From contig NZ_CP012700.1 of assembly GCF_001307295.1 (NCBI RefSeq), forward strand, positions 809,001 through 873,000: a stretch of DNA of 64,000 nt. Direction: 5' to 3'. Below are positions 30,109-45,830 of this stretch, one piece after another. The position numbers were made by a program, and so were the translations under genes. This stretch comes from Sphingopyxis macrogoltabida (lineage in GTDB: Bacteria; Pseudomonadota; Alphaproteobacteria; Sphingomonadales; Sphingomonadaceae). Every line of letters begins with the position of its first letter. Position 1 is the stretch's first letter. The notes beneath the pieces were generated by a model. The model was given only the letters and a program-made list of their open reading frames with translations, made no database searches and had not been told where the DNA came from.

Positions 30109-30190
30109 GTGTGTCTCCGCGAAGACACACTCGGCCTCCTTCCGTCGTATTCGCAGCCTGCAAGTCATGGACTCCCATCATGGCGGGAGT
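30109..30190. other. Two hairpins in the miaB-phoH gap
   Basis: First stem: GTGTGTCT (30109-30116) pairs perfectly with AGACACAC (30123-30130) around a 6-base loop. Second stem: ACTCCC (30171-30176) pairs with GGGAGT (30185-30190) around an 8-base loop. Neither is followed by a T-run, so they are not classical intrinsic terminators. They may be RNA processing or stability elements between two operon halves, or a leader structure for phoH. Confidence 0.45.
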
Positions 30191-30225
30191 ACAGTCATGT
30201 CATCGATCGAAGGAGCCTTGCCCAT

Positions 30226-31233
30226 ATGTCCAAACGCCCGCTGACTGCCTCCACCCCCGCCGAACCCGGCGACCGCGTCCGACTGACGGCGGAATTTGAG
30301 CGAACGCAGCTTTTGGGCCTCCTCTTCGGCGAATTCGACCGCAACCTCGTCGCCATCGAAAACCGCCTCGGCGTCTATATTTCAGCGCGCGGCAACCGCG
30401 TCCAGATCGAGGGTGAGGCCGAGGCCGCGGCGCGCGCCCGCGACGTGCTCACCGAACTCTATAACCGCATCGAACAGGGGCAGGAGGTCGACGCGGGACT
30501 AGTCGACGGGGTGATCGCGATGTCGGCGCAGCCGACGCTCGCCGGCATCATCCGCCACGACAAGGACGAAGCGCCGACGGTGATGATCCGCACGCGCAAG
30601 AAGACCATCGTCCCGCGCGCGCCGTCGCAGGTCCCCTATATGCAGGCGCTCGCCCGCGACGACATCATCTTCGCGCTCGGCCCGGCGGGGACGGGCAAGA
30701 CCTATCTCGCTGTCGCACAGGCGGTGGCGCAGCTCATCACCGGCAGCGTCCAGCGCCTCATCCTGTCGCGTCCCGCGGTCGAAGCGGGGGAGAAGCTCGG
30801 CTTCCTGCCTGGCGACATGAAGGAAAAGGTCGATCCCTATCTGCGCCCGCTCTACGATGCGCTCCACGACTGCCTGCCCGCCGAACAGGTCGAGCGGCGC
30901 ATCGCATCGGGCGAGATCGAGATTGCGCCGCTCGCCTTCATGCGGGGCCGCACGCTCGCTGACGCCTTCATCATCCTCGACGAGGCGCAGAACACGACCA
31001 TCCCGCAGATGAAGATGTTCCTCACCCGCTTCGGCATGAACAGCCGCATGGTGATCTGCGGCGACCCCAAGCAGGTGGATCTGCCGCTCCCCGCCAGCTC
31101 GGGCCTCGCCGATGCGGTCGGGCGCCTTGAGGGGGTCGAGGGCATCAACGTCAGCTATTTCACCAGCGCCGACGTCGTCCGTCATCCGATCGTCGGGCGG
31201 ATCGTCGATGCCTATGAAGGGCCGGGGGCGTAG
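30226..31233 (+). CDS. phoH: PhoH-like ATPase (PhoH/YbeZ)
   Basis: 335 residues from ATG 30226, with AAGGAG eleven bases upstream. Walker A is GPAGTGKT; Walker B is AFIILDEAQNTT, and GDPKQVDLP follows. An N-terminal KH-like region precedes the ATPase. PhoH/YbeZ works with YbeY in rRNA maturation and ribosome quality control, and the genes are normally adjacent; here ybeY is 14.7 kb away with other operons in between. An upstream in-frame extension to 30109 codes for unrelated sequence and is rejected. Confidence 0.95.
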   Translation: MSKRPLTASTPAEPGDRVRLTAEFERTQLLGLLFGEFDRNLVAIENRLGVYISARGNRVQIEGEAEAAARARDVLTELYNRIEQGQEVDAGLVDGVIAMSAQPTLAGIIRHDKDEAPTVMIRTRKKTIVPRAPSQVPYMQALARDDIIFALGPAGTGKTYLAVAQAVAQLITGSVQRLILSRPAVEAGEKLGFLPGDMKEKVDPYLRPLYDALHDCLPAEQVERRIASGEIEIAPLAFMRGRTLADAFIILDEAQNTTIPQMKMFLTRFGMNSRMVICGDPKQVDLPLPASSGLADAVGRLEGVEGINVSYFTSADVVRHPIVGRIVDAYEGPGA

Positions 31234-31257
31234 AGGGGATAGACGGCCCCATTTTTG

Positions 31258-31332
31258 TCGTCACCCCGGACTTGATCCGGGGTCCATGATTTCGGCGCCG
31301 CGGTGGATCCCGGATCAAGTCCGGGATGACGA
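31258..31332. repeat. REP-like palindromic element, type 1, copy 1
   Basis: A 75-bp element whose two ends are near-perfect inverted repeats, each with its own small palindrome (CCCGGACTTGATCCGGG type). A second 75-bp copy with the same ends is at 58176-58250, and the two differ at only a few internal positions. It lies between phoH and the convergent secreted-protein gene and may also end transcription. Confidence 0.85.
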
Positions 31333-31354
31333 TACAAAGGGGGAGTATCCGTTC

Positions 31355-32212
31355 CTAACTCCCGACCTTCTTGAATGTCACCGGCGTGGCGTTTCCGCCG
31401 GGCGCGATTTCGCGCGTGCCCTTGCGCACGGTGCCGTCGGGCCAGCGCACCTGATAGACGAAGCGGCCCGAGATGTTCCTGGTGACGCCGGTCTCGACCT
31501 CGTTCCATTTGCAGGCAAAGCGGTCCCACGGATCGGGCTGCTTGCGGACGCAAACTTTGAAGGCGAAGGCGCTGATCATCCACAATTGGCCGGCCGGAGG
31601 CTCGGTGCGGAATTTGACGCCGGGGGCAGGCGGCGAGCGGACCGCACCCAACCGCGGACGGCTTGGCGCGGCCATCGGCGGCGGCGTGCAGTCGCGATAT
31701 TCGAAAACCGGAGGCAAAGGCGCCTTGGCGCCGGCGCGTGCGGCCTCCAGCGCTTCGGCCAGCGACGTATAGGGATCGCCGTTCGTCTCCCTGTCTTCCG
31801 CTCTGGCGATCGATTCGCGTTCGAAAGCCAGCAGCGGTTCGGCATAGATGCTGGCCGGGTAATGCATCCGGCGCAGCTCGGCCTGCAGCCGTGCGGTTTC
31901 CAGCGCGACATAGCCATAGCGTTCCAGCAGCGGATCGGACGTCTCGCCCCCCGGCCGTTCGACATCGCAAGCAACCAGATTATAGGATTGTTCGGGCGTC
32001 GCGGGCAGGTCGCTCGCCGGCCGCGGGAATTCGGCGACCTGTGCCTCGGCCGCGATGCGGATGTCGTAATAGCCGCCGGGGTACCAGGACTGCTGCGGCA
32101 CATCGGCTTCCAGCGCCTTCATGGCTGCACCGTCATCGGCCGTGGCGTCCTGCGCCACGGCAACGGACGGGCTTGCCAGCATCAGCAGCGCCGCAATCGT
32201 CCGGCCGCCCAT
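31355..32212 (-). CDS. Secreted protein of unknown function, paralogue 2 of TIR operon
   Basis: 285 residues with a signal peptide (MGGRTIAALLMLASPSVAVA, cut near residue 20). The mature part has two blocks shared with the preceding gene: an N-terminal SWYPGGYYDIRIAAEAQVAEFPR block and a C-terminal FAFKVCVRKQPDPWDRFACKWNEVETGV block followed by SGRFVYQVRWPDGTVRKGTREI. Conserved Cys residues in VACDVE and in the VC..FAC stretch suggest disulfides, consistent with the periplasm. It starts two bases after its paralogue and is the last gene of the TIR operon. The family is not recognised; no enzyme motif is seen. Confidence 0.85.
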   Translation of the reverse strand: MGGRTIAALLMLASPSVAVAQDATADDGAAMKALEADVPQQSWYPGGYYDIRIAAEAQVAEFPRPASDLPATPEQSYNLVACDVERPGGETSDPLLERYGYVALETARLQAELRRMHYPASIYAEPLLAFERESIARAEDRETNGDPYTSLAEALEAARAGAKAPLPPVFEYRDCTPPPMAAPSRPRLGAVRSPPAPGVKFRTEPPAGQLWMISAFAFKVCVRKQPDPWDRFACKWNEVETGVTRNISGRFVYQVRWPDGTVRKGTREIAPGGNATPVTFKKVGS

Positions 32213-32214
32213 CG

Positions 32215-33195
32215 TCAGCTTCCGACTTTCTTGAAGGTCACCACGGCCGCGACCGCCTCATCTTCGTAATTGGGAACGATGTCGCGGGTTCCCTTGCGCA
32301 CCGCCCCGTCGGGCCATTTGACCTGATAGACATAGCGGCCGGAAAGCTGCTTCTCGACGCCGGTTTCGATCTCGTTCCACTTGCAGGCGAAGCGATCCCA
32401 CGGGTCGGGTCTCTTGCGGGTGCAAACCTTGAACGCGAAGGTGTTGATCAGCAGCACCTTGCCCTGCGGCGGCACCGTCTTGACGATGACGCTGCTCCCT
32501 TCGCCGGCGCCGCAACCGCCGTCGGCGAGCACTTTCGGCAGCTTCGGCGCCAGCCGCTCGCGGTTCGCCTCGACCGCCTTGGCGAGCAGGAAATAGGGGT
32601 CGTTATAGGTTTCGCTTTCGTCCATGCCGGCGTCGGCCGGGGGTGCGGCCTCCATCGACGCAGCATCCGCTGCCGCATCGGTAGCAACCTCCGCGACCGC
32701 TGCGTCGGCAGCGGCGTTCGCTTCCATCGCCATCGCGTCGCTCATTTCGGCTTCGGACACGGGTTCGGGTGCGGTTTTGGCCTCTTCGATCTTCGCCTTC
32801 TCGAACTCCAGCAGCGGTCCGGCATAAACCGCGAGCGGATATTTCATCCGCTCGAACTCGCCGCGCAGCCGCGCGACCTCGAGCGCCACCGGGCCATAGC
32901 GCGCGGTCAGCGGGTCGGTTTCGTCGAGGCTGACATATTCGGCGTTGCAGTCGATGACGTCGTAATAGGGTGGCTGCCCATCGCCCCAGTCCATCGTCAG
33001 CGTCTCGCGCGGGAAATCGGCGACCTGCCCCTCGGCGGCGATGCGGATGTCGTAATAGCCGTCGGGGTACCAGCTTTGCGGCGGCACCCGCGTTTCGATC
33101 GCTTTGAGCCCCGCGGCATCGATCGGTTCCTTCGCGGTCGCCGTCACCGGAGACGCCACCGCAGCCAGCAGCATCAGCATCTTTGCCTTGTGCAT
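32215..33195 (-). CDS. Secreted protein of unknown function, paralogue 1 of TIR operon
   Basis: 326 residues with a signal peptide (MHKAKMLMLLAAVASPVTATA). It shares with its neighbour the SWYPDGYYDIRIAAEGQVADFPR block and the PDPWDRFACKWNEIETGV block plus SGRYVYQVKWPDGAVRKGTRDI. Between these it has an extra Ala/Glu/Asp-rich, probably disordered linker (~residues 140-200), which the other paralogue lacks. It starts one base after the TIR gene stop. Tandem duplication followed by divergence is evident. No catalytic motif is recognised; the Cys pattern suggests a disulfide-bonded periplasmic domain. Confidence 0.85.
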   Translation of the reverse strand: MHKAKMLMLLAAVASPVTATAKEPIDAAGLKAIETRVPPQSWYPDGYYDIRIAAEGQVADFPRETLTMDWGDGQPPYYDVIDCNAEYVSLDETDPLTARYGPVALEVARLRGEFERMKYPLAVYAGPLLEFEKAKIEEAKTAPEPVSEAEMSDAMAMEANAAADAAVAEVATDAAADAASMEAAPPADAGMDESETYNDPYFLLAKAVEANRERLAPKLPKVLADGGCGAGEGSSVIVKTVPPQGKVLLINTFAFKVCTRKRPDPWDRFACKWNEIETGVEKQLSGRYVYQVKWPDGAVRKGTRDIVPNYEDEAVAAVVTFKKVGS

Positions 33196-33196
33196 A

Positions 33197-34177
33197 TCAA
33201 CCCTCCTGTTTCAGCCGCCGCGGGCCGCCCATCCATCCCGCCACCAGCAGCGCTGCCACCGCCGCCGCAAGCGCCCATGCGCTGCCGAGCATCAGCTTCA
33301 CCCGCCCGATCGACGCGGCCGTCCACAGCATCGCCGGATCATAGGCCGCATCGGCGAGCGCGTCGGACGGCAGGTCGGGGCATTCGGCCGCGAACACCAG
33401 CTTCGCGTCAGGCGTACACTCGGTGCCGCGCACCAGCGGCGCGCCATTTTCACCGGCGATGACATAGGCGCTGCGCGTCCAGCCATATCCCGCTGCCGCC
33501 GCGAGCAACAGCGCGAGCAGCACGCCGCGCACCCAGCCTCTGGTCCATAGTTTTGCGCCGCCGGCGGCAATCGCCCCTACGGGGATTGCGATGGCGAGCA
33601 GTGCGGCGAGCCAGCCGACCGGCGATTCCGGCGGAGCCAGCCCGCCCAGCCAGGCGGCGAGCAGCAGCAGCGCCAGCACCGCGCCGCTCGCGCCCGCGCG
33701 GACCAGCGCGTTGTTCCAGCTCACGCTTTTCGTGCCGCGCGCCTTGCGCGGGATATAATCGCCGCGGCCTGCCGCGCCGTTCACCAACTGGCCGACGACA
33801 TCGCACAGCCGGACGATATGGTCCTCGACCGGCGGCGACAGCGCGTCGAGCCAGTGCGGGACGCTCATGAAATATTCGAGGCTGCGTTCGGGCAGCACAT
33901 CCTCGATGCGAAAGGGGATGATCGGCAGGCCCAGGTGCACCGCGCGCTCGACCTCGCGCAGGATCTGCGGCGACGCATTGGCGTTCTGCGAAAAGACCAG
34001 CACGAACACGGCCGATTCCTTCAGCCCGTCGATGATCGCCTCGCCCCACGATGCGCCGGGCAGGATGTCGCGCGGCGCGATCCAGCAGCGATGCCCGCGC
34101 TCCTCCAGCAGCGCACACACCATGTTTGCGACGGTGCGGTCCTTCGACGAATAGCTGATGAAAACCTGTGCCGGCAT
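33197..34177 (-). CDS. Membrane-anchored TIR domain protein
   Basis: 326 residues from ATG 34175-34177. An N-terminal TIR domain (residues ~1-135) starts VFISYSSKDRTVANMVCALL and continues CWIAPRDILPGASWGEAI, then REVERAV, where Glu75 or Glu77 is the candidate NADase glutamate. Four hydrophobic segments follow (~160-180, 190-210, 217-236, 292-316). A ~55-residue loop with two Cys between segments 3 and 4 should face the periplasm, where the two downstream secreted paralogues would be. All three genes are 1-2 bp apart on the same strand and form one operon. Bacterial TIR proteins often degrade NAD+ in defence or signalling; the role here is unknown. Confidence 0.88.
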   Translation of the reverse strand: MPAQVFISYSSKDRTVANMVCALLEERGHRCWIAPRDILPGASWGEAIIDGLKESAVFVLVFSQNANASPQILREVERAVHLGLPIIPFRIEDVLPERSLEYFMSVPHWLDALSPPVEDHIVRLCDVVGQLVNGAAGRGDYIPRKARGTKSVSWNNALVRAGASGAVLALLLLAAWLGGLAPPESPVGWLAALLAIAIPVGAIAAGGAKLWTRGWVRGVLLALLLAAAAGYGWTRSAYVIAGENGAPLVRGTECTPDAKLVFAAECPDLPSDALADAAYDPAMLWTAASIGRVKLMLGSAWALAAAVAALLVAGWMGGPRRLKQEG

Positions 34178-34262
34178 GGCTATCCCCCGGTGCGCATCAT
34201 GGCGCGCGCGGAAGGGAAGGGCAATTGGGGATTGGAGTAAGGAAGGTCCGGTTTCGGCCGAT

Positions 34263-34415
34263 AGCGGACATGCAGTCCTCCCTGTCGCATAGCGATGGGG
34301 AGGTGGCAGCCGCGTAACGGCTAACGGAAGCGCTCGCTGCGCTCGCCGCCCTTCCATCACCCTTCGGGCGGTCCCCTCCCCACGGCTGCGCCGCAGGGAA
34401 GCAGCAACGTCCGCT
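34263..34415. repeat. Palindrome-rich intergenic element (~150 bp)
   Basis: The 337-bp gap between the divergent TIR and diguanylate cyclase genes contains nested inverted repeats: outer AGCGGAC ... GTCCGCT (34264 and 34409), and inner GGGGAGGTGGCAGCCG ... CCCCTCCCCACGGCTGC arms. It resembles the dispersed intergenic repeats of sphingomonads. No coding potential is seen in the rest of the gap. Confidence 0.5.
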
Positions 34416-34514
34416 CCTCACCTTAAAGCGGTCGTCACCGGGTATCGCGTGCCATCAAAATGATTTGCTAACCCGGCACTGCCAACATCCCTCCGACACT
34501 GTATTGGATGGCAG

Positions 34515-36005
34515 ATGCCCTTTCAGAGCCAAGAGAATAGCAGCGCGGCGCTGGAGCCACGGGCCGCCTTAGCGATCCCCCTTCAGGCGGCCTGGTTGCC
34601 CTTGCTTTTCGTCGCCCTGCACGGTGCGCTGCTGGTCGTCGGCGGGCGCCATGCATGGCTTGTCTCGCTCGTCTTTCTAATCCTCGCCCCGCTGATGGCC
34701 GGTGCAGCCTGCATCTATCGGGCGCGGCACGGCGGCTTCGCGCGCGGCTGGATCGCGCTGGCGATCGCCATGCTGCTGTGGGCCGGCGGCATGGCGGGCA
34801 ATTTGTTCAGCGGGCTGGTGCTCGATAGCTGGTCGGGCGTCGGCGCGCTCAGCATGCTGCTGTTCATCCTCTATGGCGTGCCGATCATCCTCGTCCTCGC
34901 CGTTCCCGAACGCGAACCCTGGCCGGTCCGGCTGATCGATGCCGGCCTGGCGCTCGCCCTCGGCTATCTCTTCTTCCGGCACACGTTCGCGCTGGCGTCG
35001 CTGGCGGATGCGAGCTTGTCGAATATCGTCAAGCTGCGGCTGATGTTCGATATCGAAAATCTCTATATCTTCGCTTTCGCGTTGATCCGCTTCCTGGCGA
35101 GCGCCAATCCCGCGCAGCGCGCCTTTTTCGGCGGCCTTTCCGTCTATGCCGCGCTTTATCTGGTGACGGCCGCTTTCATCAATCATCTGCATTCGGACGT
35201 CTACTATGGTCAGTGGCCCGATCTGGTGATCGGACTGCCGTTCCTGATCCTTGCAGGACTCGCGCTGGCCGACAGGGGCGGCGCGTCGATGCCTGTATCG
35301 CTCCGTTTCGGGCGGGCCGTGCGAGTCGGCGGCCCGCTCATGCTTCCTGCGGCTTTGCTCACCGTCTCGGCGGTGCTGGTTGGCGCCCAACCGCTCCATG
35401 CGATTGCCGGCTGCGCCGCGGCGATTCTCGGCTATGGCATGCGCACGATCTGGGTGCAGGTTCGCAGTCTCGATGCGCACGACCGGCTCGAGCATCTTGC
35501 CCGTGTCGATCAGCTGACCGGGCTGGGCAACCGGCGGCAGTTCGACGAAAGTCTGCGCCGCGAATGGCTGCGCGCGCAGCGGACGGGGCAGGGGCTTGCG
35601 CTGCTGATGATCGACATCGATCATTTCAAATTGCTCAACGACAGCTTCGGTCATCCGGTCGGCGATCGCCGGTTGCACGAGGTCGCGCAGGCGCTCGCCG
35701 GTTGCGCAACGCGCGGCGTCGATACGGTCGCGCGCTATGGGGGCGAGGAGTTCGCCGCGATCCTGCCCGGCGCGACGCCGCAGCACGCGCGCATGCTTGC
35801 CGAAACGATGCGCGCGGCGGTTGCACGGCTGGAGCTGCCGTCGCCTGCGCCTCTCGGCTATGTCACCGTGAGCATCGGTATCGGCCATATCGATCAGGTC
35901 GCGGACGGCGACGTTGCCGTGCTGGCGGCAGCCGCCGACGCGGCGCTCTATGAAGCGAAACAGAGCGGCCGCAACCGGTCGATGACGCACGCCGCGACCG
36001 GTTAG
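34515..36005 (+). CDS. Diguanylate cyclase with N-terminal membrane domain
   Basis: 496 residues. About eight hydrophobic segments between residues ~22 and ~320 form an integral membrane sensor region of unrecognised type; a GGDEF domain follows (~330-490). The active-site motif is YGGEEF, with the RGVD inhibitory (I-site) motif five residues upstream, so product inhibition by c-di-GMP is expected. DQLTGLGNRRQFD opens the domain. It makes c-di-GMP from two GTP. It is divergent from the TIR operon and convergent with the broken doxX gene, whose 3' end lies just beyond its stop. Confidence 0.95.
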   Translation: MPFQSQENSSAALEPRAALAIPLQAAWLPLLFVALHGALLVVGGRHAWLVSLVFLILAPLMAGAACIYRARHGGFARGWIALAIAMLLWAGGMAGNLFSGLVLDSWSGVGALSMLLFILYGVPIILVLAVPEREPWPVRLIDAGLALALGYLFFRHTFALASLADASLSNIVKLRLMFDIENLYIFAFALIRFLASANPAQRAFFGGLSVYAALYLVTAAFINHLHSDVYYGQWPDLVIGLPFLILAGLALADRGGASMPVSLRFGRAVRVGGPLMLPAALLTVSAVLVGAQPLHAIAGCAAAILGYGMRTIWVQVRSLDAHDRLEHLARVDQLTGLGNRRQFDESLRREWLRAQRTGQGLALLMIDIDHFKLLNDSFGHPVGDRRLHEVAQALAGCATRGVDTVARYGGEEFAAILPGATPQHARMLAETMRAAVARLELPSPAPLGYVTVSIGIGHIDQVADGDVAVLAAAADAALYEAKQSGRNRSMTHAATG

Positions 36006-36023
36006 GTATCGCCGCCTGGGCGT

Positions 36024-36403
36024 TTACGCCTTCGCCTTGCCCTCGACGCTCCAGATCCCGGCGCCGTGCGTCGCGATGAACAGGAAGATGAAGCAATAAA
36101 GCGCGATCGTTTCGCCGCCGTTGACGATCGGGAAGGCGCCCTGGCTGCCGTGCGCGACCAATAGCCGACTGCGGACATGCCGCTGGCGAGGAAGGCCGCC
36201 GGGCGTGTGAACAGGCCGATGACGATCAATCCCCCCGCGACCAGCTCGATTGCCCCCGCGGCATAGAGCATCGGATTGAGCGGCATCGGGAAAGCCGCCG
36301 GAAAATTGAAGAATTTCTGCACGCCATGCGCCAGGAACAGCAGCCCGGCGACGATGCGCAGGAGCGCATAGGCCTGTGCGCCATAACCATCGAGAAATTT
36401 CAT
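36024..36403 (-). pseudogene. DoxX family membrane protein, frameshifted
   Basis: The first ~82 codons read as a normal DoxX protein (LLRIVAGLLFLAHGVQKFF, AGAIELVAGGLIVIGLFTRP, FLASGMSAVGY), then the frame breaks near 36160 and the rest (VAHGSQGAFPIVNGGETIALYC..., FLFIATHGAGIW) continues in another frame to a stop at 36024. The span is 380 nt, one base short of 127 codons. TATTGG where TATTTGG would restore the frame suggests loss of one T. DoxX proteins are small four-helix membrane proteins linked to redox stress. It may be a recent pseudogene or a sequencing error. Confidence 0.85.
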
Positions 36404-36482
36404 GATCGCTCCCCCTCATTCCGGTTGTCGAGGCGGGTAGGCTAACGAAATTTTCGGCGAAGGCGAATTTTTTCGCGGCCCA

Positions 36483-36509
36483 TGTCACATCGACCGATCC
36501 TGTCTCGTC
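36483..36509 (+). promoter_or_regulatory. ECF41-type promoter
   Basis: TGTCACA (36483-36489) and CGTC (36506-36509) are separated by 16 bp, matching the promoter signature described for ECF41 sigma factors. It lies 33 bp upstream of the carboxymuconolactone-decarboxylase gene that is followed by an ECF41 sigma gene, giving an autoregulated pair. Confidence 0.75.
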
Positions 36510-36541
36510 ATGTCTGCACAACCCCAGCAAAGGAGCATGAC

Positions 36542-37000
36542 ATGACCCGGATAACCGACCCCTTCGCCGCCTCGCCGCAGTTGATGAAACAGTGGATGGC
36601 GGTGTCGCTTGCCGCGCAGAACAGCCTCGAACCGAGCCTGATCGAACTCGTCAAGATCCGCTCGTCGATCCTCAACGGCTGCGCCAACTGCATCAACATG
36701 CACAGCGTCGAAGCGCGCGCCAAAGGCGAAACCGAACAGCGCATCTACCTGCTTGCCGCGTGGCACGAAGCGCCCGTCTATACCGATCGCGAGCGCGCGG
36801 CGCTGGCGTGGACCGACGCCTTGACCCGCCTGTCGCAAGGGCACACACAGAAGGACGCCCGCGCCGCGCTCGATGCGCATTTCACGCCGGAGGAACAGAT
36901 GAACCTCACCGTGATGATCAACGTCATCAACGGCTGGAACCGCATCGCGGTCGGCTTCGACCTCTGGTACGAAGGCGGCGCGCCCGCAAAGGCCGCCTGA
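36542..37000 (+). CDS. Carboxymuconolactone decarboxylase (AhpD-like) family protein
   Basis: 152 residues from ATG 36542 with AAGGAG six bases upstream. The AhpD-like motif CANCINMH (CxxC-x3-H) at ~47-54 is complete, suggesting a thiol-based peroxidase or disulfide function. The C-terminal part (VMINVINGWNRIAVGFDLWYEGG) is typical of the family. Proteins of this group are the usual partner of ECF41 sigma factors, and the sigma gene starts one base inside this stop codon (TGATG). An ECF41 consensus promoter precedes it. Confidence 0.94.
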   Translation: MTRITDPFAASPQLMKQWMAVSLAAQNSLEPSLIELVKIRSSILNGCANCINMHSVEARAKGETEQRIYLLAAWHEAPVYTDRERAALAWTDALTRLSQGHTQKDARAALDAHFTPEEQMNLTVMINVINGWNRIAVGFDLWYEGGAPAKAA

Positions 37001-37875
37001 TGACGGGCGAAAGCGTCCACGGCGAGGCGGGGGCGGCGGAGGCAGCGGCGAGTTTCGATCCGCTGCGCCCGCTCCTCATCCGCGTCGCCTATCGCATGCT
37101 CGGCTCGGTCGCCGATGCCGAGGATGTGGTGCAGGATGCCTTCCTCCGCTGGCTCGGCACCGACCGCAGCGAGGTGCGCGAGCCGGCCGCCTTCCTCCGG
37201 CGGACGGTGACACGGCTTTGCCTCGACCAGCTCAAGTCGGCGCGCCGCACCCGCGAGACCTATGTCGGTCCCTGGCTGCCCGATCCGCTCGTCGAGGAAG
37301 AGGAAGCCGACGACGTCACGCTGCCGCTGATGCTCGCGCTCGAACGCCTGTCGCCGCTCGAACGCGCGGCGTTCCTCCTGCACGACGTCTTCGGTGTCGG
37401 TTTCGACGAGGTCGGGGCGACGATCGGCCGCGACGCCGCCGCGACGCGCCAACTCGCGGCGCGCGCCCGCAGCCACGTCCGCGAGGCGCGGCCGCGCTAC
37501 AAGCTCGAGAAAGAGCAGGGGATGGAAATCGCCAACGCCTTTTTCGCCGCGTCGCGCAGCGGCGACATGAGCGCGCTCGGCGCGCTGCTCGCCGCCGATG
37601 TCGGCATGTGGGCCGACGGCGGCGGCAAGCGTCCCGCCGCGATGGGACCGGTGCTTGGCTTCGACACGGTGCTGAAGCTTCACCGCAGCCTTGCGGTGCT
37701 GTTCGGCAAATATGGCTCGACGCTCGTCCACTTGGGGCTGATCAACGGCCTGCCGGGATTCGTGACGCGCGAGGCCGATGGCGAATTGCAGACGACGGCG
37801 CTCGAGATCGAAGACGGCAAGGTCACCGGCATCTATGTGATGCGCAATCCCGACAAGCTCAAACACATGCATTAA
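37000..37875 (+). CDS. ECF41-group RNA polymerase sigma factor (SigJ-like)
   Basis: 291 residues. Sigma region 2 (LLIRVAYRMLGSVADAEDVVQDAFLRW) and region 4 (LSPLERAAFLLHDVFGVGFDEVGATIGRDAAATRQLAARAR) are followed by a ~110-residue SnoaL-like extension. The linker motif WLPDPL and the DGGGK motif in the extension mark the ECF41 group, where the extension regulates activity and no separate anti-sigma factor is needed. It overlaps the carboxymuconolactone-decarboxylase gene by one base and likely controls the promoter at 36483. Confidence 0.95.
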   Translation: MTGESVHGEAGAAEAAASFDPLRPLLIRVAYRMLGSVADAEDVVQDAFLRWLGTDRSEVREPAAFLRRTVTRLCLDQLKSARRTRETYVGPWLPDPLVEEEEADDVTLPLMLALERLSPLERAAFLLHDVFGVGFDEVGATIGRDAAATRQLAARARSHVREARPRYKLEKEQGMEIANAFFAASRSGDMSALGALLAADVGMWADGGGKRPAAMGPVLGFDTVLKLHRSLAVLFGKYGSTLVHLGLINGLPGFVTREADGELQTTALEIEDGKVTGIYVMRNPDKLKHMH

Positions 37876-37898
37876 GCGTGGTCGCCATTTACTGAATC

Positions 37899-37974
37899 GT
37901 CATCCCGGCGAAGGCCGGGATCTCACCGATGCGTCAGGGCGATATGGCCGGATCCCGGCCTTCGCCGGGATGAC
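37899..37974. repeat. REP-like palindromic element, type 2
   Basis: A 76-bp element with inverted ends (GTCATCCCGGCGAAGGCCGGGATC and its complement), each containing a GGCGAAGGCC-type palindrome. It lies in the 262-bp gap after the ECF41 gene and before the biotin-carboxylase operon. Its half-site motif is shared with the shorter hairpin at 58119. Confidence 0.8.
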
Positions 37975-38137
37975 AAGATAAGGAGGGTCATGCTTCAATC
38001 TAACCCGACTACGCTCGTCGCCGTGCAATTTCGTTCGACGATTTCGCCTAAACACTCTTTCCCTGCGCGTCGGACGGTGCTAACCGGAGGTCAGCGAACG
38101 AGTCCCCGGTCGACAGGGGGCGGGCAAGGGGTGAGTG

Positions 38138-39685
38138 ATGTTGAGCTACGCGCGATTGCTGGAAGCGAACAATGCGATCCAGACACTGGGCGACGATACC
38201 TATTGGCTGTGCGTGACGCGGACGGTGCAGGAATCGAAACTGTTCCCCGTGCCGTCCTATATGCTGCTGTCCTATCTCTGCTGCTTCTATCGCTATCCCG
38301 AGCTGCTGCGAAAGGTCGAGGCGAAGATGCCGGCCGAGGAAATCGGCGACCGCGCGCGTGCAATGGGCGGCAAGTTCGGCAATTTGCCGGGCTGGGGCCT
38401 GCCGACCTTCTATCTGCTCGGCCGCGAGATGCTGATCAACTTCGGCATGCTCGATCCCGCCGATGCCGCGGAAGATGTCGCCTATGTCATGGCCTTCTGG
38501 CGCCGCTTCAAACTCGCGCAACAGCGCGAGGACGGCCACCTCAATGCGCGCGAATTTGGCCAGCGCGTGCAATTGCTGCCCGAACGCCGCGTCCAGCGCT
38601 TCCACGCCGACCTGCACGCCTGCGCGGTGGGCGACCGGTTGCACAAGGCGGCGCAGGCATTCCTCGCCACCGTGTCGCAATATGGTTTTCTCGTGTCGTG
38701 CGAGAGCCGCGTGTCGCTCAACAACAACGGCCCCTATAACCTCGGCGACGGCCGCGAGCTCATCGTTCGCGAATTCACCGACCTCGCCGAGGGCGACTAT
38801 CCGTGGCTCGACGGGATCGCGGGCGACATTCCCTACAATAACCTGACCGTCACGATGGAGGCGACGGGGTGCCATTTCTATCTGATGGACGATTGGGGCA
38901 GCTTTGAATCGCGTCCCGAATTCACCGCCGACAAGCTGACCGGCGTCGGTCTCTATACCTCCGACGTGCTGTCGGAAGGTTTCGTGCCCGTCGGCATGGG
39001 CTCGGCCGACGAACTCGCCGGCACATTCGAGGAACTGACCGAGAAGGTGCGCGTCGCGACCGTCGCGCTGTGGAAGCGCGTCGCGGGCTGGAGCCGCGAC
39101 CAGATGATGGACGCCGGAGCGCTCGTCTATTTCTCGATGGCGAAGGATTTCGCGCACATCGCCGGAGTCTATGACGTCAATGACTGGATGACGATCGACC
39201 CGCGCGCCGACCGCTTCCGCCCCTTGCTCAACGACGAGTTCGGGCGCGATTTCCTGGGCGAACTGGTCGGCCTTGTCGACCTGCCGAGCCAGCGGATCAG
39301 CGACTATGCGATGATGCAGCACAACAACAATCCGGTCCGCTATATCTCGCAGATACCGTATAGCGTCCTCGGCCGCGACGGCGCGGCGCCGGAGCTGGCG
39401 CCGATCGGCGAGGGCGTCACCCATCTCGGCGCCAAGGCCGACCGTTATACGACGACTGCCGGGGCGTTGACGCTGACCGAATATAATGCGCGCGCCGCGG
39501 CGTTCGTGCCGCGGCAGATGGCGCCCGATTATCGTTTCCTGTGCGACACGACGGTCAAATATCGCAGCGACGACCCCGCGGTACAGGCGATGTACCGCGA
39601 CGAGCAGCAGGGGTCGCGGCTCGCCGGCAAGGGGGCGGGCCTGAGCCGCGCCGACATCGAAGCCTTGCGGGGAGCAGGTCAATGA
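38138..39685 (+). CDS. Protein of unknown function at head of biotin-carboxylase operon
   Basis: 515 residues from ATG 38138 (GTG 38135 is an alternative). No signal peptide and no long hydrophobic segment; probably soluble. The sequence is rich in aromatic residues, with segments such as LPGWGLPTFYLLGREML, SLNNNGPYNLGDGRELIVREF, MEATGCHFYLMDDWGSF and YAMMQHNNNPVRYISQIPYSVLG. I do not recognise the family. Its stop overlaps the BCCP start (ATGA), so it is translationally coupled to a biotin-dependent carboxylase and should be functionally linked: possibly an extra subunit, a substrate-preparing enzyme, or an acceptor-binding protein. Confidence 0.85.
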   Translation: MLSYARLLEANNAIQTLGDDTYWLCVTRTVQESKLFPVPSYMLLSYLCCFYRYPELLRKVEAKMPAEEIGDRARAMGGKFGNLPGWGLPTFYLLGREMLINFGMLDPADAAEDVAYVMAFWRRFKLAQQREDGHLNAREFGQRVQLLPERRVQRFHADLHACAVGDRLHKAAQAFLATVSQYGFLVSCESRVSLNNNGPYNLGDGRELIVREFTDLAEGDYPWLDGIAGDIPYNNLTVTMEATGCHFYLMDDWGSFESRPEFTADKLTGVGLYTSDVLSEGFVPVGMGSADELAGTFEELTEKVRVATVALWKRVAGWSRDQMMDAGALVYFSMAKDFAHIAGVYDVNDWMTIDPRADRFRPLLNDEFGRDFLGELVGLVDLPSQRISDYAMMQHNNNPVRYISQIPYSVLGRDGAAPELAPIGEGVTHLGAKADRYTTTAGALTLTEYNARAAAFVPRQMAPDYRFLCDTTVKYRSDDPAVQAMYRDEQQGSRLAGKGAGLSRADIEALRGAGQ

Positions 39686-40176
39686 GCGCCGCCGATCGTA
39701 CCGCCGAACTCGAGCAACTGATCGCCGAGTTCGAGAAGTCGGGGCTGCGCGAACTGCACGTCGTGCGCGACGGCGTCGAAATCTATCTGTCGAACGACGC
39801 CGGCAGCATCGGGCTCAGCACGGGAGCGTCTGCCGCCCCCGCACCCTCATCGCCAGTCTCCCCTGCCGCCGCCGGTACGGTACCCCCGTCGCCGGCGGCG
39901 GACTCTTTGCCTGCGGCAGAGACATGGCCCGAAGGTGCAGAGATCGTGCGGGCGCCCTATCTCGGCACCTTCTATCGCGCGCCGAAGCCCGGTTCGCCAG
40001 CCTATGTCGAGGTCGGCAGCGCGGTGACCGCGGAATCGGAACTCTGCCTCGTCGAGGTGATGAAATTGTTCACGACCGTCCGTGCCTGCAGCGATGGCAT
40101 CGTCCACGCCATCCTGTCGGCCGACGGCGCGCTGGTCGAAGCCGACCAGCCGCTGTTCGTGATCGTGAAGGGCTGA
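39682..40176 (+). CDS. Biotin carboxyl carrier protein (AccB-like)
   Basis: 164 residues. An N-terminal helix-strand AccB-like segment (LEQLIAEFEKSGLRELHVVRDGVEIYLS) is followed by an Ala/Pro-rich linker (~45-80) and a biotinyl domain with the motif VEVMKLFTT, where Lys128 is the biotinylation site. Coupled by ATGA overlap to the unknown 515-residue gene and three bases before the biotin carboxylase gene. It is shorter and more acidic in the linker than a typical housekeeping AccB, and the operon context says it serves a dedicated carboxylase. Confidence 0.92.
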   Translation: MSAADRTAELEQLIAEFEKSGLRELHVVRDGVEIYLSNDAGSIGLSTGASAAPAPSSPVSPAAAGTVPPSPAADSLPAAETWPEGAEIVRAPYLGTFYRAPKPGSPAYVEVGSAVTAESELCLVEVMKLFTTVRACSDGIVHAILSADGALVEADQPLFVIVKG

Positions 40177-40179
40177 CCG

Positions 40180-41547
40180 ATGGCGATCGCCCGCCTGTTC
40201 ATTGCCAACCGCGGCGAGATCGCGCTGCGCGTCGCGCGCGCCGCGCAGGCGCTGAATATCGAGACCGTGCTGGGTGTGTCTGAAGCCGACCGCGACAGCG
40301 CCGCGGCGCGGCTGGTCGACCGCACCATCGTGCTGGGGCCCGGTCCCGCGGCGCGCAGCTATCTCGATGCGAAACTCGTCGTACAGGCGGCGAAGGCGAC
40401 CGGCTGCGACGCGCTCCACCCGGGCTATGGCTTCCTCTCCGAGCGCGCGATGTTCGCGCAGCTCTGCGAGGATCATGGCATTATCTTCGTCGGGCCGCAG
40501 CCGGACATCATCGACGCGCTCGGCGACAAGCTGCGTGCGCGCGAAATGGCGTCGGCGGCCGGGGTGCCGCTGGTCCCCGGCAGCGGCGAGATCGGCAGCG
40601 CCGCCGACGCGCGGCGCATCGCCGACGAAATCGGCTATCCGGTGCTGCTGAAGGCCGCGGCGGGCGGCGGCGGACGCGGCATGGTGATCGCGAACAACGG
40701 CGAAGAGGTCGAGGCGGGTTACGGGCGCGCGAGCGCCGAGGCGCTGGCGGCGTTCAACGACGGCACTTTGTTCATGGAGCGCTTCGTTCCCGAGGCGCGC
40801 CACGTCGAGGTGCAGTTGATCGGCGACGGGCAGGGCAAGGTCGTCCATTTCGGCGAGCGCGATTGTTCGGTGCAGCGCCGCTACCAGAAATTGATCGAGG
40901 AAGCGCCGAGCGTCGCCATGCCCGACAGCCTGCGCGCGGCGCTGCACAAGGCGGCGGTAGATCTGGCCGCGAGCGTCGATTATCGCAACGCCGGGACGGT
41001 CGAATTCCTGTACGACGTGATGCGGCAGGAGGTCTATTTCATCGAGGTCAACGCGCGCATCCAGGTCGAGCATCCGGTCAGCGAAATGGTGAGCGGCGTC
41101 GATCTGGTGCAGCAGCAGCTTCGCGTCGCGGGCGGGCAGGGGCTGTCGATGGCGCAGGACGATGTCGTGCTGTCGGGTCATGCGATCGAATGCCGCATCA
41201 ATGCCGAGGATGCGGCGCGCGGTTTCACCCCCGTTCCCGGCACGATCACCCGCTGGGCGCCGCCCGAAGGCGAGGGCATCCGGCTCGACAGCCATATGAG
41301 CAGCGGCGCCGCGATCCCGCCCTTCTATGACTCGATGGTCGGCAAGCTGATCGTCCATGGCAAGGACCGCGCCGAGGCGGTGTCGCGGCTGACCGACGCG
41401 CTCGACGATTTCACCGTCGAAGGCGTGCCGACGACGATCGACCTCCACCGGCAGATCGTCCGCCATCCCGATTTTATCGCCAACGCTTTCCATACGCGCT
41501 GGCTCGAACAAGTGATGCTCGCCGAACCGGCGATCGCAGCGGAGTAG
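40180..41547 (+). CDS. Biotin carboxylase subunit
   Basis: 455 residues, AccC-like. N-terminal LFIANRGEIALRVARAA, ATP-grasp domain with KAAAGGGGRGM glycine loop, ERFVPEARHVEVQ, and the EVNARIQVEHPVSEMVSGVDLV active-site segment; the C-terminal cap contains GHAIECRINAEDA. It carboxylates biotin on BCCP using ATP and bicarbonate. It is part of the six-gene operon from 38138 to 45785. Three bases separate it from both neighbours. Confidence 0.96.
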   Translation: MAIARLFIANRGEIALRVARAAQALNIETVLGVSEADRDSAAARLVDRTIVLGPGPAARSYLDAKLVVQAAKATGCDALHPGYGFLSERAMFAQLCEDHGIIFVGPQPDIIDALGDKLRAREMASAAGVPLVPGSGEIGSAADARRIADEIGYPVLLKAAAGGGGRGMVIANNGEEVEAGYGRASAEALAAFNDGTLFMERFVPEARHVEVQLIGDGQGKVVHFGERDCSVQRRYQKLIEEAPSVAMPDSLRAALHKAAVDLAASVDYRNAGTVEFLYDVMRQEVYFIEVNARIQVEHPVSEMVSGVDLVQQQLRVAGGQGLSMAQDDVVLSGHAIECRINAEDAARGFTPVPGTITRWAPPEGEGIRLDSHMSSGAAIPPFYDSMVGKLIVHGKDRAEAVSRLTDALDDFTVEGVPTTIDLHRQIVRHPDFIANAFHTRWLEQVMLAEPAIAAE

Positions 41548-41550
41548 CCG

Positions 41551-43005
41551 ATGGCGCACATCAAATTTCTCGACGAAACCTGCCGCGACGGCCAGCAGAG
41601 CCTGTGGGGCATGCGAATGCAGGCGGGGCAGGCCTATCCGGCGCTGCCGACGATCGACCAGACCGGCTATTCGACGATCAGCCTTGCCGGGTCGTCGCTG
41701 TTCGAAGTGCTCGTCCGCCATTGCCAGGAGGATCCCTGGGCGGGGTTCGACCTGATGATGAGCCAGATCAAGAATACCCCGGTGCGCGGCGGCATCCGCT
41801 CGAACGGGTCGGTGACCTTCGGTTTCACGCCGCAGGTCTTGATGGACCTCTGGATGGAGCGGCTCTGCGTCCACGGGGTGCGGAGCTGGTGGATTTACGA
41901 CGTGCTGTTCAACATCGACAAGATGACGCGGCTCGCCAAGCTGTCGAAGAAATATGACTGCAAGGTCGCGGCGACGATGCTGTTCACCCTGTCGCCGGTG
42001 CACGACGATGCCTTCTGGGCCGACAAGGCCGACAAGCTCTCGGCGATCCCCGAAGTCGACAGCCTGCTGCTCTACGACACGGGCGGCGTGCTCGACCGCG
42101 ACCGGATCAAGACGCTCGTTCCCGCGATCGTCGCCAATGCGCGCGGCAAGCCGGTCGAGATGCATTCGAACAATATGCTGGGGCAATCGGCCAAGGCCTA
42201 TTGCGACGCCGTCGAATATGGCGTGACCGTGCTCCACACCGCCGCGCGGTCGATGGCGAACGGCCCGTCGATCCCGTCGATCGACATCATGGTCAAGAAT
42301 ATGGAGGCGCTCGGCCACACGCACGACATTGATGTGTCGAAACTGCAGCCGGTGTCCGAGCATTTCCGCAAGGTGGCGAAGACCGCGGGTTATCTCCACG
42401 ACCAGCATTATGAATATGATGTCACCTCGCTGACCACCCAGATCCCCGGCGGGATGATGGGGACGCTGCGCAATCAGCTCATCCAGCAGAATATGCTCGA
42501 CATGCTGCCGCAGGTGCTGGGCGAGGTGGCGGCGGTGCGCCGCGAGCTGGGCTATCCCGGCATGGCGACGCCCTTCGCGCAGCTCGTCGGCACGCTCGCG
42601 GTGCTCAATATCGTCACCGGCAAGCGCTATGGCGCGATCCCCGACGAGGTGATCCAATATGCCGCCGGCTATTATGGCGAGCCGCCGGCGCCGATCGATC
42701 CGGACGTCATGGACCGCATCGCCGCGGCGCCGCGCGCCAAGGAAATCTTCGGCAATCCGCCGCCCGAGCCGACGCTGGAAGATCTGAAACGCCAGCACGG
42801 TACCGAGGACGAGGACGAACTGATCCTGCGCGCGCTGGTCCCCGCGTCGGACATCGTCCGCATGCGCGCGGCGGGACCGCTGAAGCGCGATTATCCGACG
42901 CTCTCGTCGCCCGAGATGGAGCAGGTGCGGCGGCTGATGCAGGTCGCGAATACGCCGTTCGTGCAGATCAAGTCGGCCGAACTCGATCTCGTCATGCGGC
43001 GCTGA
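41551..43005 (+). CDS. Carboxyltransferase of HMGL/pyruvate-carboxylase type, divergent active site
   Basis: 484 residues, DRE-TIM fold like pyruvate carboxylase or oxaloacetate decarboxylase alpha. The first-strand motif DETCRDGQQSLWG (Asp8) is kept. Where these enzymes carry the carbamylated Lys (IKDMAGLL type), this protein reads LYDTGGVL, with Tyr175 in the Lys position; and where they have the metal site HTHDT, it reads HSNNM (His205, Asn207). The C-terminal part keeps QIPGGMMGTLRNQL and a carboxylase-like FxQLVGTLAVLNIVTG segment. The fold is clear; the substrate and exact chemistry are not. A non-pyruvate acceptor is likely. Confidence 0.85.
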   Translation: MAHIKFLDETCRDGQQSLWGMRMQAGQAYPALPTIDQTGYSTISLAGSSLFEVLVRHCQEDPWAGFDLMMSQIKNTPVRGGIRSNGSVTFGFTPQVLMDLWMERLCVHGVRSWWIYDVLFNIDKMTRLAKLSKKYDCKVAATMLFTLSPVHDDAFWADKADKLSAIPEVDSLLLYDTGGVLDRDRIKTLVPAIVANARGKPVEMHSNNMLGQSAKAYCDAVEYGVTVLHTAARSMANGPSIPSIDIMVKNMEALGHTHDIDVSKLQPVSEHFRKVAKTAGYLHDQHYEYDVTSLTTQIPGGMMGTLRNQLIQQNMLDMLPQVLGEVAAVRRELGYPGMATPFAQLVGTLAVLNIVTGKRYGAIPDEVIQYAAGYYGEPPAPIDPDVMDRIAAAPRAKEIFGNPPPEPTLEDLKRQHGTEDEDELILRALVPASDIVRMRAAGPLKRDYPTLSSPEMEQVRRLMQVANTPFVQIKSAELDLVMRR

Positions 43006-43011
43006 CACGCG

Positions 43012-44562
43012 ATGCGGATGATCGACTATTTCGATCGCGGCGCGCGGATGGCGCATGACAAGCCGTGCATGATCGCCGGCGAGAACATGCGGACCTACGC
43101 CGAAGTGTCGGCGCGCAGCCATGCCATCGCGCGCGCGCTGATCGCCGACGGCTTCGCGGCCGGGGCGCATGCGGCCGTGCTGAGCGGCAATGCGATGGTC
43201 GCGTTCGAAGCGATCCTCGGCATCCTCCGCGCCGACGGCGTGTGGGTGATGGCGAACAACCGCGCCGCGGTGGGCGAAAATGCTTATCTGCTGGGCCTGC
43301 TCGACGTCGATACTTTGTTCGTCCATTCGGAGGTCGCCGACCGCATCGCGACCTTTCGCGCCGAATGCCCCAACATCCGCCGCTATGTCGCGCTCGATCT
43401 GCCCTTCGCCGAGGCCGACCTGTTTGTGGGCGATATGCTCGACGGTTCCGGCGACCCCGCGCCGCAGCGGCGCTCGGGGCATGAGGACGAGCTCGCTTTC
43501 CTCGGCAACACCGGCGGGACGACGGGGCGACCGAAGGGCGTGATGCTCTCGAACCGCAACTGGCAGGCGCTGGTGTCGAGCCTCGTCGCGTCGATGCCGA
43601 TGAAAGTACCACCGGTGAATCTCGTCGCCGCGCCGATGACCCACGCGGCGGGGCCACTCGCGCTCGCCAGCATGGCGCTGGGCGGGACGGTGGTCGTGCT
43701 GCCGAAATTCGATCCGCCCGCCGTGGTCGCGGCGATCGAGAAACATCGCGTAACCTATATGTTCCTGCCGCCGACCGCGATCTACATGCTGCTCGCCGAG
43801 CCGAGCGTGCGGACCGCCGACCTCTCCAGCCTCGAATATATCAGCTATGCCGGAGCGCCGATGTCGCTCGACCGGCTCAAGGAAGCGATTGCCGTGCTGG
43901 GGCCGGTGATGAACGCGAGCTTCGGGCAGACCGAGGCGCCGATGTGCGTCACCGCGATGCCGCCGCACGAGCATCTGAATGCCGACGGCGACCTTGCGCA
44001 TCCGGGGAGCTGCGGCCGCGCCAACCTGCTGTCGATCGTCGAGATCATGGACGAGGAGGGCAACATCCTGCCGCCCGGCGAACGCGGCGAGATCGTCGTG
44101 CGCGGGCCGCTGGTGATGGCGGGCTATTACAAGAACCCGGAGGCGACGGCCGAAGTGTCCACCTTTGGCTGGCACCATACCGGCGACATCGGGGTGCGCG
44201 ACGCGGACGGCTGGTTCTATGTCGTCGACCGCAAGAAGGACATGATCATCTCGGGTGGGTTCAACATCTACCCGGCCGAGGTCGAACAGGCGATTCTCGC
44301 GCATCCCGATGTCCAGGATTGCGCGGTGATTGGCGTGCCCGACGACAAATGGGGTGAGGCGGTGGTCGCGGTGGTCGAACCGCGCGCGGGGGCGAGCGTC
44401 GATGTCGACGCGCTGCTGGCATCGGCGCGCGAAGCGCTGGGGCCGGTGAAGACGCCCAAGGCGATCGAGGTCGTCGCGGCGCTGCCGCGCAGCAATGCGG
44501 GCAAGGTGCTGCGCGCCGAACTGCGCCGCGAACGCTGGACGGCGGCGGGGAGGGCGATCTGA
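43012..44562 (+). CDS. Acyl-CoA synthetase (AMP-binding)
   Basis: 516 residues, ANL superfamily. P-loop-like motif NTGGTTGRPKGVMLSN, the YAGAPM and ASFGQTEAPM motifs, HTGDIGVRDADGWFYVVDRKKDMIISGGFNIYPAEVE hinge region, and the catalytic Lys in RSNAGKVLR at the C-terminus. It activates a carboxylic acid to its CoA thioester via an acyl-adenylate. Here it probably acts on the product or substrate of the neighbouring carboxylase. The stop overlaps the thiolase start by one base. Confidence 0.95.
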   Translation: MRMIDYFDRGARMAHDKPCMIAGENMRTYAEVSARSHAIARALIADGFAAGAHAAVLSGNAMVAFEAILGILRADGVWVMANNRAAVGENAYLLGLLDVDTLFVHSEVADRIATFRAECPNIRRYVALDLPFAEADLFVGDMLDGSGDPAPQRRSGHEDELAFLGNTGGTTGRPKGVMLSNRNWQALVSSLVASMPMKVPPVNLVAAPMTHAAGPLALASMALGGTVVVLPKFDPPAVVAAIEKHRVTYMFLPPTAIYMLLAEPSVRTADLSSLEYISYAGAPMSLDRLKEAIAVLGPVMNASFGQTEAPMCVTAMPPHEHLNADGDLAHPGSCGRANLLSIVEIMDEEGNILPPGERGEIVVRGPLVMAGYYKNPEATAEVSTFGWHHTGDIGVRDADGWFYVVDRKKDMIISGGFNIYPAEVEQAILAHPDVQDCAVIGVPDDKWGEAVVAVVEPRAGASVDVDALLASAREALGPVKTPKAIEVVAALPRSNAGKVLRAELRRERWTAAGRAI

Positions 44563-45785
44563 TGCGCGATGCGGTGATCCTCGGCGTCGGCATGACGCCG
44601 TTCGGCCGCCATCTCGACAAGAGCCACGAGCAACTCACGCAATGGGCGGTGCGCGAGGCGCTGGCCGACAGCGGGGTGCCGCCGGGCGAGATCGACATGG
44701 CGGTCTATGCCAATGTGATTCAGGGATTTTTTGCCGGCGAAATGTCGATCCCCGGCGAATATGCGCTGCGCCCGCTCGGCATTTCGGGGGTGCGCGGTTT
44801 CCATGTCGAGGCGGCGTGCGCCAGCTCGACCGTCGGGCTGCACGTCGCGGTCGATTATGTCCGCGCGGGGCTCGCCGACTGCGTGCTCGTCGTCGGGGTC
44901 GAGAAGCTCTATTCGGACGACCGCGCCAAGAAGTTTGCGGTGTTCCAGCAGCCGCGCGACCTTGTCGAAGCCGAAGCCTATCTGGCCAAAACTGCGAACT
45001 TGCTCGCGCCGGTGCCGCCGGGCGGCGAGAGCGTCAGTCCCAATATTCTGATGCAGGCCTATGCCGCGCAGGCGCGGCTTCATATTGCCACCTATGGCTC
45101 GACCCAGCGCCAGATCGCGGCGGTCGCTGCCAAGGATCATGGCCATTCGGTGCACAATCCATTGAGCCAGTATCGCAAGCCGATGTCGGTCGACGAGGTG
45201 CTTGCGGCACCGACGGTGGCGTGGCCGCTGACCAATCCGATGTGCGCGCCGATCAGCGACGGCGCGGCGGCGGCGATCGTGTGCAGCGCCGACTGGGCAA
45301 GGCGCTTTCCCGATGCGCGCGCGGTGCGCGTGCTGGCAGCGGAATCGCAGACCGGGAGCGAACGCGCGCCCGACGATTATGCCAACCATGTCACGCGCAT
45401 CGTCGGCGCGCGCGCTTATGAAAAGGCGAGCGTCGGTCCGAAGGATATCGACATCGCCGAGGTTCACGACGCCAGCTCGATCGGCGAGATGATCCAGACC
45501 GAAGCGCTCGGCCTCTGCGCGCCCGGTGAGGCGGGCATCGCCGCCGAACGCGGCGAGACGGCGCTTGGCGGGCGCATTCCGGTCAATGTGTCGGGCGGGC
45601 TGGTGTCGAAGGGGCATCCGCTCGGCGCGACCGGGCTGGGGCAGATTTTCGAACTGGTCACGCATTTGCGGGGAGATGCGGGTACGCGGCAGGTCGAAGG
45701 CGCACGCATCGCGATCGCGGAGAACAGTGGCGGCTTTTACGGGGTCGAGGATGGCATGTCGGCGGTGACGATATTGGCGCGTTGA
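44562..45785 (+). CDS. Thiolase family protein, SCP2-type acetyl-CoA acetyltransferase
   Basis: 407 residues. Catalytic Cys86 in VEAACASST, the EVHDASS segment (His), and the NVSGGLVSKGHPLGATG motif mark the SCP-x/acetyl-CoA acetyltransferase group without a DUF35 partner. Such enzymes cleave or form beta-ketoacyl-CoA thioesters, often of bulky or cyclic substrates. It is the last gene of the carboxylase operon, suggesting that carboxylation yields a beta-keto acid that is CoA-activated by the ligase and then thiolytically cleaved. Confidence 0.93.
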   Translation: MRDAVILGVGMTPFGRHLDKSHEQLTQWAVREALADSGVPPGEIDMAVYANVIQGFFAGEMSIPGEYALRPLGISGVRGFHVEAACASSTVGLHVAVDYVRAGLADCVLVVGVEKLYSDDRAKKFAVFQQPRDLVEAEAYLAKTANLLAPVPPGGESVSPNILMQAYAAQARLHIATYGSTQRQIAAVAAKDHGHSVHNPLSQYRKPMSVDEVLAAPTVAWPLTNPMCAPISDGAAAAIVCSADWARRFPDARAVRVLAAESQTGSERAPDDYANHVTRIVGARAYEKASVGPKDIDIAEVHDASSIGEMIQTEALGLCAPGEAGIAAERGETALGGRIPVNVSGGLVSKGHPLGATGLGQIFELVTHLRGDAGTRQVEGARIAIAENSGGFYGVEDGMSAVTILAR

Positions 45786-45800
45786 TGGCCTGACGAAATT

Positions 45801-45830
45801 TTGCTGTCCTACATTGCACCGCCGTTATAG
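45801..45830 (+). promoter_or_regulatory. Possible promoter of the displaced ybeY-corC operon
   Basis: TTGCTG (45801-45806) and TTATAG (45825-45830) with an 18-bp spacer lie ~115 bp upstream of the ybeY start, in the relatively AT-rich gap after the thiolase gene. ybeY would need its own promoter once separated from phoH. Motif quality is only moderate. Confidence 0.35.

Follow-up and report, generated by a model that had tools for sequence, protein, structure and literature searches.

A TIR domain fused to the putative membrane partner of secreted proteins in Sphingopyxis: a possible two-part envelope receptor

The cassette described here combines a gene for a membrane-bound TIR protein (TIR-M) with genes for secreted proteins (S) and was found in the window, the whole 64,000-nucleotide stretch of Sphingopyxis macrogoltabida DNA that was analysed. 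As judged from sequence comparison, its conserved unit is the pair formed by S and the four-helix membrane half of TIR-M (M), a core Sphingomonadaceae pair, and the fusion of M to TIR was seen only in Sphingopyxis. The cassette may act as a split envelope receptor, in which S gates TIR-M via the loop of M and TIR cleaves NAD+, a reading that we hold at slightly less than an even chance. The pairing proposed by a first-pass annotation of this DNA stands within the genus and is re-centred here on S and M; in the cases found outside the genus the pair lacks TIR, the inside/outside layout is not unique to the cassette, and no sign of defence genes was seen among eight neighbours in the window.

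The operon lies on the minus strand in the order TIR-M, S1, S2, with spacings of 1 bp and 2 bp, which confirms the initial description of a membrane TIR gene followed by two secreted paralogues (Table 1). The start codon assigned to TIR-M is the Met start common among its homologues, and GGGGGA precedes the ATG. The inverted repeat beyond S2 may be a bidirectional terminator or else a repetitive palindrome. The genes phoH and ybeY are neighbours in many bacteria; in the window they are separated by about 15 kb (31233-45944), which hold the cassette and other genes.

Table 1. Features of the cassette and its border, in positions of the window
Feature	Position	Strand	Basis
TIR-M gene, 326 aa, N-terminal TIR and four-helix membrane half	33197..34177	-	Profile match and model
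TIR_2 domain, residues 5-112	33842..34165	-	Pfam, E 1.8e-22
Candidate catalytic Glu75 of TIR-M	33953-33955	-	E75 and E77 in 45/45 alignment rows
M half, residues 153-326, four predicted transmembrane helices	33200..33721	-	Homologues are free-standing TIR-less proteins in other genera
Loop predicted to lie in the periplasm (residues 236-291), carrying C254 and C266	33305..33472	-	Cys conservation
S1, secreted; N domain helical, C domain a beta fold; Cys 83/228/258/271	32215..33195	-	Model and alignment A1
C-terminal beta domain of S1, portion common to distant relatives	32218..32508	-	Alignment and profile searches
S2, second secreted paralogue	31355..32212	-	42% to S1, E 1e-72
Inverted repeat of 40 nt (88% complementarity) separating S2 from phoH, which converge on it	31247..31343	.	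Sequence
phoH, conserved neighbour at one side of the cassette	30109..31233	+	Comparison of loci

S is present in 17 of 80 Sphingopyxis genomes, and an S gene directly follows TIR-M in all 17 carriers, so that the anticipated pairing of a membrane TIR gene with secreted proteins across genomes is borne out within the genus. The TIR-M query gave matches in 24 of the 80 genomes at E <= 0.001; 17 of these (E < 1e-85) belong to exactly the carriers of S, and the other seven (E 1e-4 to 1e-17) are other TIR proteins. The number of S copies per genome ranges from 1 to about 5. One copy lies beside TIR-M in four genomes (G018, G030, G031 and G053) and two in nine; G051 has two and a third in broken frames, G063 one and two in broken frames, G068 at least one (at a contig end) and G041, provided that its two contigs are contiguous, at least five. 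TIR-M itself is split over two contigs in G034, and distal S copies without an adjoining TIR-M occur in G029 and G041. The presence of several S copies per operon, some of them decayed, suggests varied ligands or triggers. For four genome pairs, dN/dS lies at 0.10-0.34 in TIR, 0.12-0.29 in the M half, 0.14-0.60 in the N part of S and 0.11-0.29 in its C part, which indicates purifying selection on the cassette proteins. Among 14 genomes (91 non-independent pairs) distances of TIR-M show a moderate correlation with those of phoH (rho 0.51); since miaB against phoH gives 0.24, this test of vertical against horizontal transmission has little power and nothing is drawn from it.

The cassette sits beside phoH in all 15 of the 17 genomes where this site is visible. 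phoH closes the array on the TIR-M contig in 14 of the 17 and flanks the S copies on the second contig of G041, its position in G034 and G068 being hidden by contig ends. phoH was found in 75 of 80 Sphingopyxis genomes, and among 30 fetched phoH loci, four of them with the cassette, 17 of the 26 cassette-free ones have a TonB-dependent receptor gene within 1.5 kb downstream, five a DoxX gene (four also AhpD) and four none of the tested genes. The same receptor borders the other side of TIR-M in 13 of the 17 genomes with the cassette (coverage 69-100% and identity 76-100%, apart from L080, where the match is shorter; the receptor of L072 has TonB and plug domains) and is absent there in G000, G068, G018 and G030. 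Because receptor and phoH flank the cassette in most carriers, it appears for the most part to occupy one fixed site between these two genes. The suggested enrichment near defence genes found no support: none of the eight flanking genes in the window had a convincing PADLOC match, phoH itself matching three models at E 2.7e-4 to 4.5e-4, and neither a defence gene nor a partner effector was seen among them. A roughly 370-aa ORF without a Pfam match follows the S array in G051 (L079:13787-14896), and a similar-looking ORF, cut by the contig end, lies in the same place in G034 (L088:3-1013).

Homologues of M without TIR were found in five genomes of the family outside Sphingopyxis, one of these homologues being broken, and in three of the five genomes an S homologue lies directly upstream. 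The S profile A1 matched two of 397 family genomes, its own and G358. In G358 the stop codon of S overlaps by one base the start of a TIR-less M of 183 aa, which aligns to the membrane half of TIR-M at 38% over 113 aa; the start of this S homologue resembles a lipoprotein signal (LAAC, by eye). Directly after this pair lies an ORF in which a DUF2853 domain is joined to an OmpA domain (L095:10312-11280). A membrane-half profile that includes G358 (A3) matched 11 of the 397 genomes at E <= 0.01, namely its own, G358, G154 (1.5e-30), G393 (4.1e-24), G459 (3.9e-10) and six that were discounted for weak scores (E 0.001-0.007) and partial cover before the loop, three having internal stops and three lying within long frames. 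Its enlarged version (A5) gave three matches in 196 order genomes (its own, G154 and G549, the last at 2.2e-30) and one, its own, in 190 class genomes, and the S profile A6 matched its own genome only in a 200-genome phylum sample; absences in these scans are soft because the profiles score only some candidates per genome.

In G154 the S homologue ends 29 bp before M (S profile A4, built without G154, E 6.4e-14 over six fetched loci) and in G549 10 bp before it (A6, 19.6 bits, E 5.9e-6 over one locus), the latter match being weak, as A4 gave nothing at E <= 1. The order outside Sphingopyxis is thus opposite to that of the cassette, S preceding M with anything from a one-base overlap to a gap of 29 bp. 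The M of G393 is itself broken, and a profile search of the fetched locus showed no S there; in G459 no S profile match was found at the fetched locus, where a secreted ORF upstream of M looks disrupted and has a start similar to that of the secreted protein of G549. That S was not found beside M in these two of the five genomes counts against a receptor made of S and M. A TIR-only profile found no TIR in the five M loci (4.7-19.9 kb); TIR genes do occur elsewhere in each of the five genomes, at the closest some 10.8 kb away from S in G358. Membrane segments are prone to chance matches, against which there are two safeguards: a reversed-ORF control, and the detection of a neighbouring S with a profile other than that of M. 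On 5886 reversed ORFs of the fetched loci the top scores were 8.3 bits for A3 and 9.5 bits for A5, and neither of the S profiles, A4 and A6, had any match at E <= 10; the real M scores were 40-107 bits (A3) in G154, G393 and G459 and 106.6 bits (A5) in G549.

At the protein level the M profile A7 matched 67 sequences, of which 60 carry a precomputed TIR_2 domain. Among nine matches that were read, P0181-P0183 are complete TIR-less M proteins (P0182 is named Qipengyuania mesophila), and P0171, P0178, P0184 and P0185 look like fragments of fused TIR-M forms. All fused proteins with an organism name are from Sphingopyxis, and many others are metagenome sequences. Both loop cysteines are present in 44 of 45 rows of the TIR-M alignment A2, the remaining row having a gap there, and the loop pattern CP ... 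WT..S is invariant in all seven rows of A7, four of them TIR-less. Secreted homologues occurring mostly without a TIR gene had been named as grounds for abandoning the earlier reading; the few cases found outside Sphingopyxis do show this pattern, and those within the genus do not. Since S pairs with the four-helix half alone outside the genus (three cases found), TIR appears to be an add-on, and by parsimony its fusion to M is probably derived rather than TIR having been lost elsewhere.

Two other readings of the pair meet their evidence here. Mere neighbourhood by descent, the genes staying together at phoH without a joint function, agrees with the phoH-adjoining site common to the 15 genomes; it deserves hardly any credence, as adjacency of S and M recurs in three other genera at other spacings and in reverse order. 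S and M might instead do a structural job in the envelope (e.g. surface-component assembly) with TIR as a regulator only and no receptor involved. The TIR-less pairs of three other genera speak for this, because a TIR-free core must have a task of its own. The patchy presence of the genes (17 of 80 genomes in the genus; among 397 family genomes, S in 2 and clear M matches in 5, own genome included), together with the multiplication and decay of S, points to an accessory recognition system rather than a basic envelope part, and the structural reading is accordingly judged improbable.

In the libraries searched, S and M both appear as unannotated families. S1 and S2 gave nothing beyond noise against Pfam, NCBIfam, PADLOC and PHROGs, and S gave only noise against PDB sequences (best E 0.47 and 0.05). 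The model of S1 (pLDDT 88.4, pTM 0.82) had no match of weight among PDB and viral structures, its N domain being barely covered in the VIA list; Ig-like structure matches were insignificant, none reaching E <= 0.001. M proteins matched eight Pfam families, each in one of seven rows and at best at E 0.0025 (TauE), and the four of these shown with cut-offs all fell below them; against PHROGs there was one match at 0.0051 (M of G358) and none for M of G549, and against PDB sequences only noise (best E 0.17). An origin from a mobile element was considered and rejected, S1 having no phage match and the M half no match among plasmids. The S queries matched four Variovorax plasmid records each. The C domain of S is recognisable in three stretches fetched out of 13 places listed, and these contain S-like proteins without a detectable M, no match to the M profile being found in the three stretches. 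Such proteins, like the distal S copies of G029 and G041, count against a receptor made of S and M. L107, L108 and L109, from Variovorax plasmid 2 records, encode secreted-looking proteins with an S-like C-terminal domain, in at least two places per record.

TIR-M belongs to the TIR_2 proteins by a profile match above the cut-off and by the fold of its model, which resembles known TIR domains in structure comparison. The candidate glutamates named at first sight, Glu75 and Glu77, are both invariant in A2. In TIR NADases the helix alphaC that follows the third strand holds an invariant Glu, and Glu75 lies inside the model helix 70-81; equated by eye with E642 of SARM1, it is the candidate residue for NAD cleavage. 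The position in helix alphaC that usually holds Trp is Gln71 in TIR-M, which counts against an NADase. This Gln would suit a TIR that is a scaffold and not an enzyme, S and M sensing the envelope and TIR recruiting another cytosolic protein by TIR-TIR contact. The five TIR_2 matches in its own genome (TIR-M included) would make partner TIRs available, and the best PDB sequence matches of TIR-M, metazoan TIR-STING and TLR TIRs, also favour a scaffold. A pure scaffold need not keep a Glu75 that is invariant in 45 of 45 rows, and we regard this explanation as unlikely.

In the split envelope receptor preferred here, S would be exported and M would lie in the inner membrane with its two-Cys loop outside and TIR in the cytosol, as the predicted topology and folds suggest. 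Two changes would have taken place in Sphingopyxis: M gained TIR at its N-terminus, on the cytosolic side, and the S gene underwent tandem multiplication. The partner of S is most likely M, because S stays with M where TIR is absent; most likely S docks on the periplasmic loop and holds TIR-M inactive. Phage, damage or the binding of a ligand to S, as events at the envelope, would alter the contacts between S and M, the TIR domains would then cluster, and the assembled TIR would cleave NAD+, presumably by way of Glu75, with growth stop or a signal as the outcome. SpbK is a TIR NADase that is active when its TIR domains cluster, according to passages of PMC12847820. Passages of PMC13142454 state that amoebae tolerate TirC when it keeps its membrane segment, that TirC lacking the segment is toxic to them, and that in other organisms the segment does not suffice for silencing. 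From the clustering of SpbK and the membrane effect in TirC we infer that binding of S to the loop of M may set the clustering of TIR-M. The behaviour of TirC, like the tight gene order of TIR-M followed by S, would also agree with a toxin-antitoxin-like guard, in which TIR-M is the toxin, secreted S inhibits it, and TIR is released when S disappears from the periplasm. S pairs with TIR-less M as well and therefore did not arise to neutralise TIR, which leaves this guard very improbable.

TIR_2 matches occur in 45 of the 80 Sphingopyxis genomes. Among 29 distinct non-cassette TIR ORFs (46 loci), in 24 the TIR is followed by a hydrophobic segment and a tail of 115-336 residues; the 29 ORFs are the better matches and hence a biased sample, and the hydropathy threshold is home-made. 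A Pfam scan of 24 TIR ORFs found LprI in the tails of seven (one below cut-off), DUF3617 in three, SH3_3 with YARHG in six, DUF3298 in two without a hydrophobic segment, OmpA weakly in one (below cut-off) and nothing in five. Single-chain loci of this kind are L059-L064, L068-L071, L139, L141, L142, L144, L146, L148, L179 and L180. As such proteins are common in the genus, the predicted inside/outside layout, which had been considered unusual, is not unique to the cassette; that most of the other TIR proteins examined follow it within one chain favours the receptor reading and makes the cassette less singular. No description was found of the split arrangement, in which the partners are secreted. 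No report describing the cassette or the TIR-TM-LprI/YARHG/DUF3617 proteins was among the literature matches listed; this is weak evidence of novelty, since several lists covered part of the matches and few subscription papers were within reach.

TIR signalling proteins are known; what appears new here, going by the comparisons above, is a separate family of secreted partners and a modular membrane transducer. Described bacterial TIR systems, to our knowledge, read signals inside the cell. If TIR is indeed coupled to a periplasmic partner, bacteria, like animals, would report events outside the inner membrane via TIRs, and the cassette and the single-chain proteins would together define outward-looking TIR receptors in bacteria. 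S and M with and without TIR would form a natural before/after pair, in which an enzyme was placed under an existing sensor. A Toll-like two-part bacterial receptor, with secreted sensors and a four-helix transducer onto which TIR was grafted in one genus, with sister genera using this pair of S and M without it, is put forward tentatively, as a conjecture somewhat more doubtful than probable. The cassette would work like the Toll-like/IL-1 receptors in having its sensing part outside, a membrane span and a cytosolic TIR. It differs from them in the N-terminal position of TIR, the four membrane helices and the making of the outside part as a distinct, secreted chain; of TIR-M itself, a loop of some 56 residues is predicted to lie outside, and no LRR or Ig domain, as in Toll-like ectodomains, was found by Pfam in TIR-M, S1 or S2.

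With the bacterial TIR NADases (ThsB of Thoeris, SpbK, TIR-STING) TIR-M shares the TIR fold and a candidate catalytic Glu. Thoeris models match it weakly (ThcB4 0.0003 at 19.8 of 220 bits; ThsB 0.00076), ThsB_TIR at 17.3 bits (E 0.0067) falls below its cut-off of 21.2, and no PADLOC match to a ThsA-type gene was found in S1, S2 or the eight neighbours. No STING or SAVED Pfam domain, as would mark TIR-STING or CBASS, was found in TIR-M at E up to 1, and the PADLOC SAVED_TIR model matches residues 3-80 only, that is, TIR. SpbK differs in sensing a phage portal protein, as stated in passages of PMC12847820. TirC resembles TIR-M as a TIR NADase with a membrane segment; it is eukaryotic, with a single helix, and the passages of PMC13142454 at hand mention no partner. 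In conflict systems of Thiohalocapsa, DGR targets, some with TIR, are presented in passages of PMC10907252 as putative sensors outside and inside the cytoplasm, the TIR-bearing target described there being predicted, unlike TIR-M, to be cytoplasmic. Nearest in layout are the single-chain Sphingopyxis proteins with LprI, DUF3617 or SH3_3-YARHG tails, of the same genus and likewise with TIR predicted inside and a domain outside; they consist of one chain with usually one span, whereas the cassette combines four spans with a separate S.
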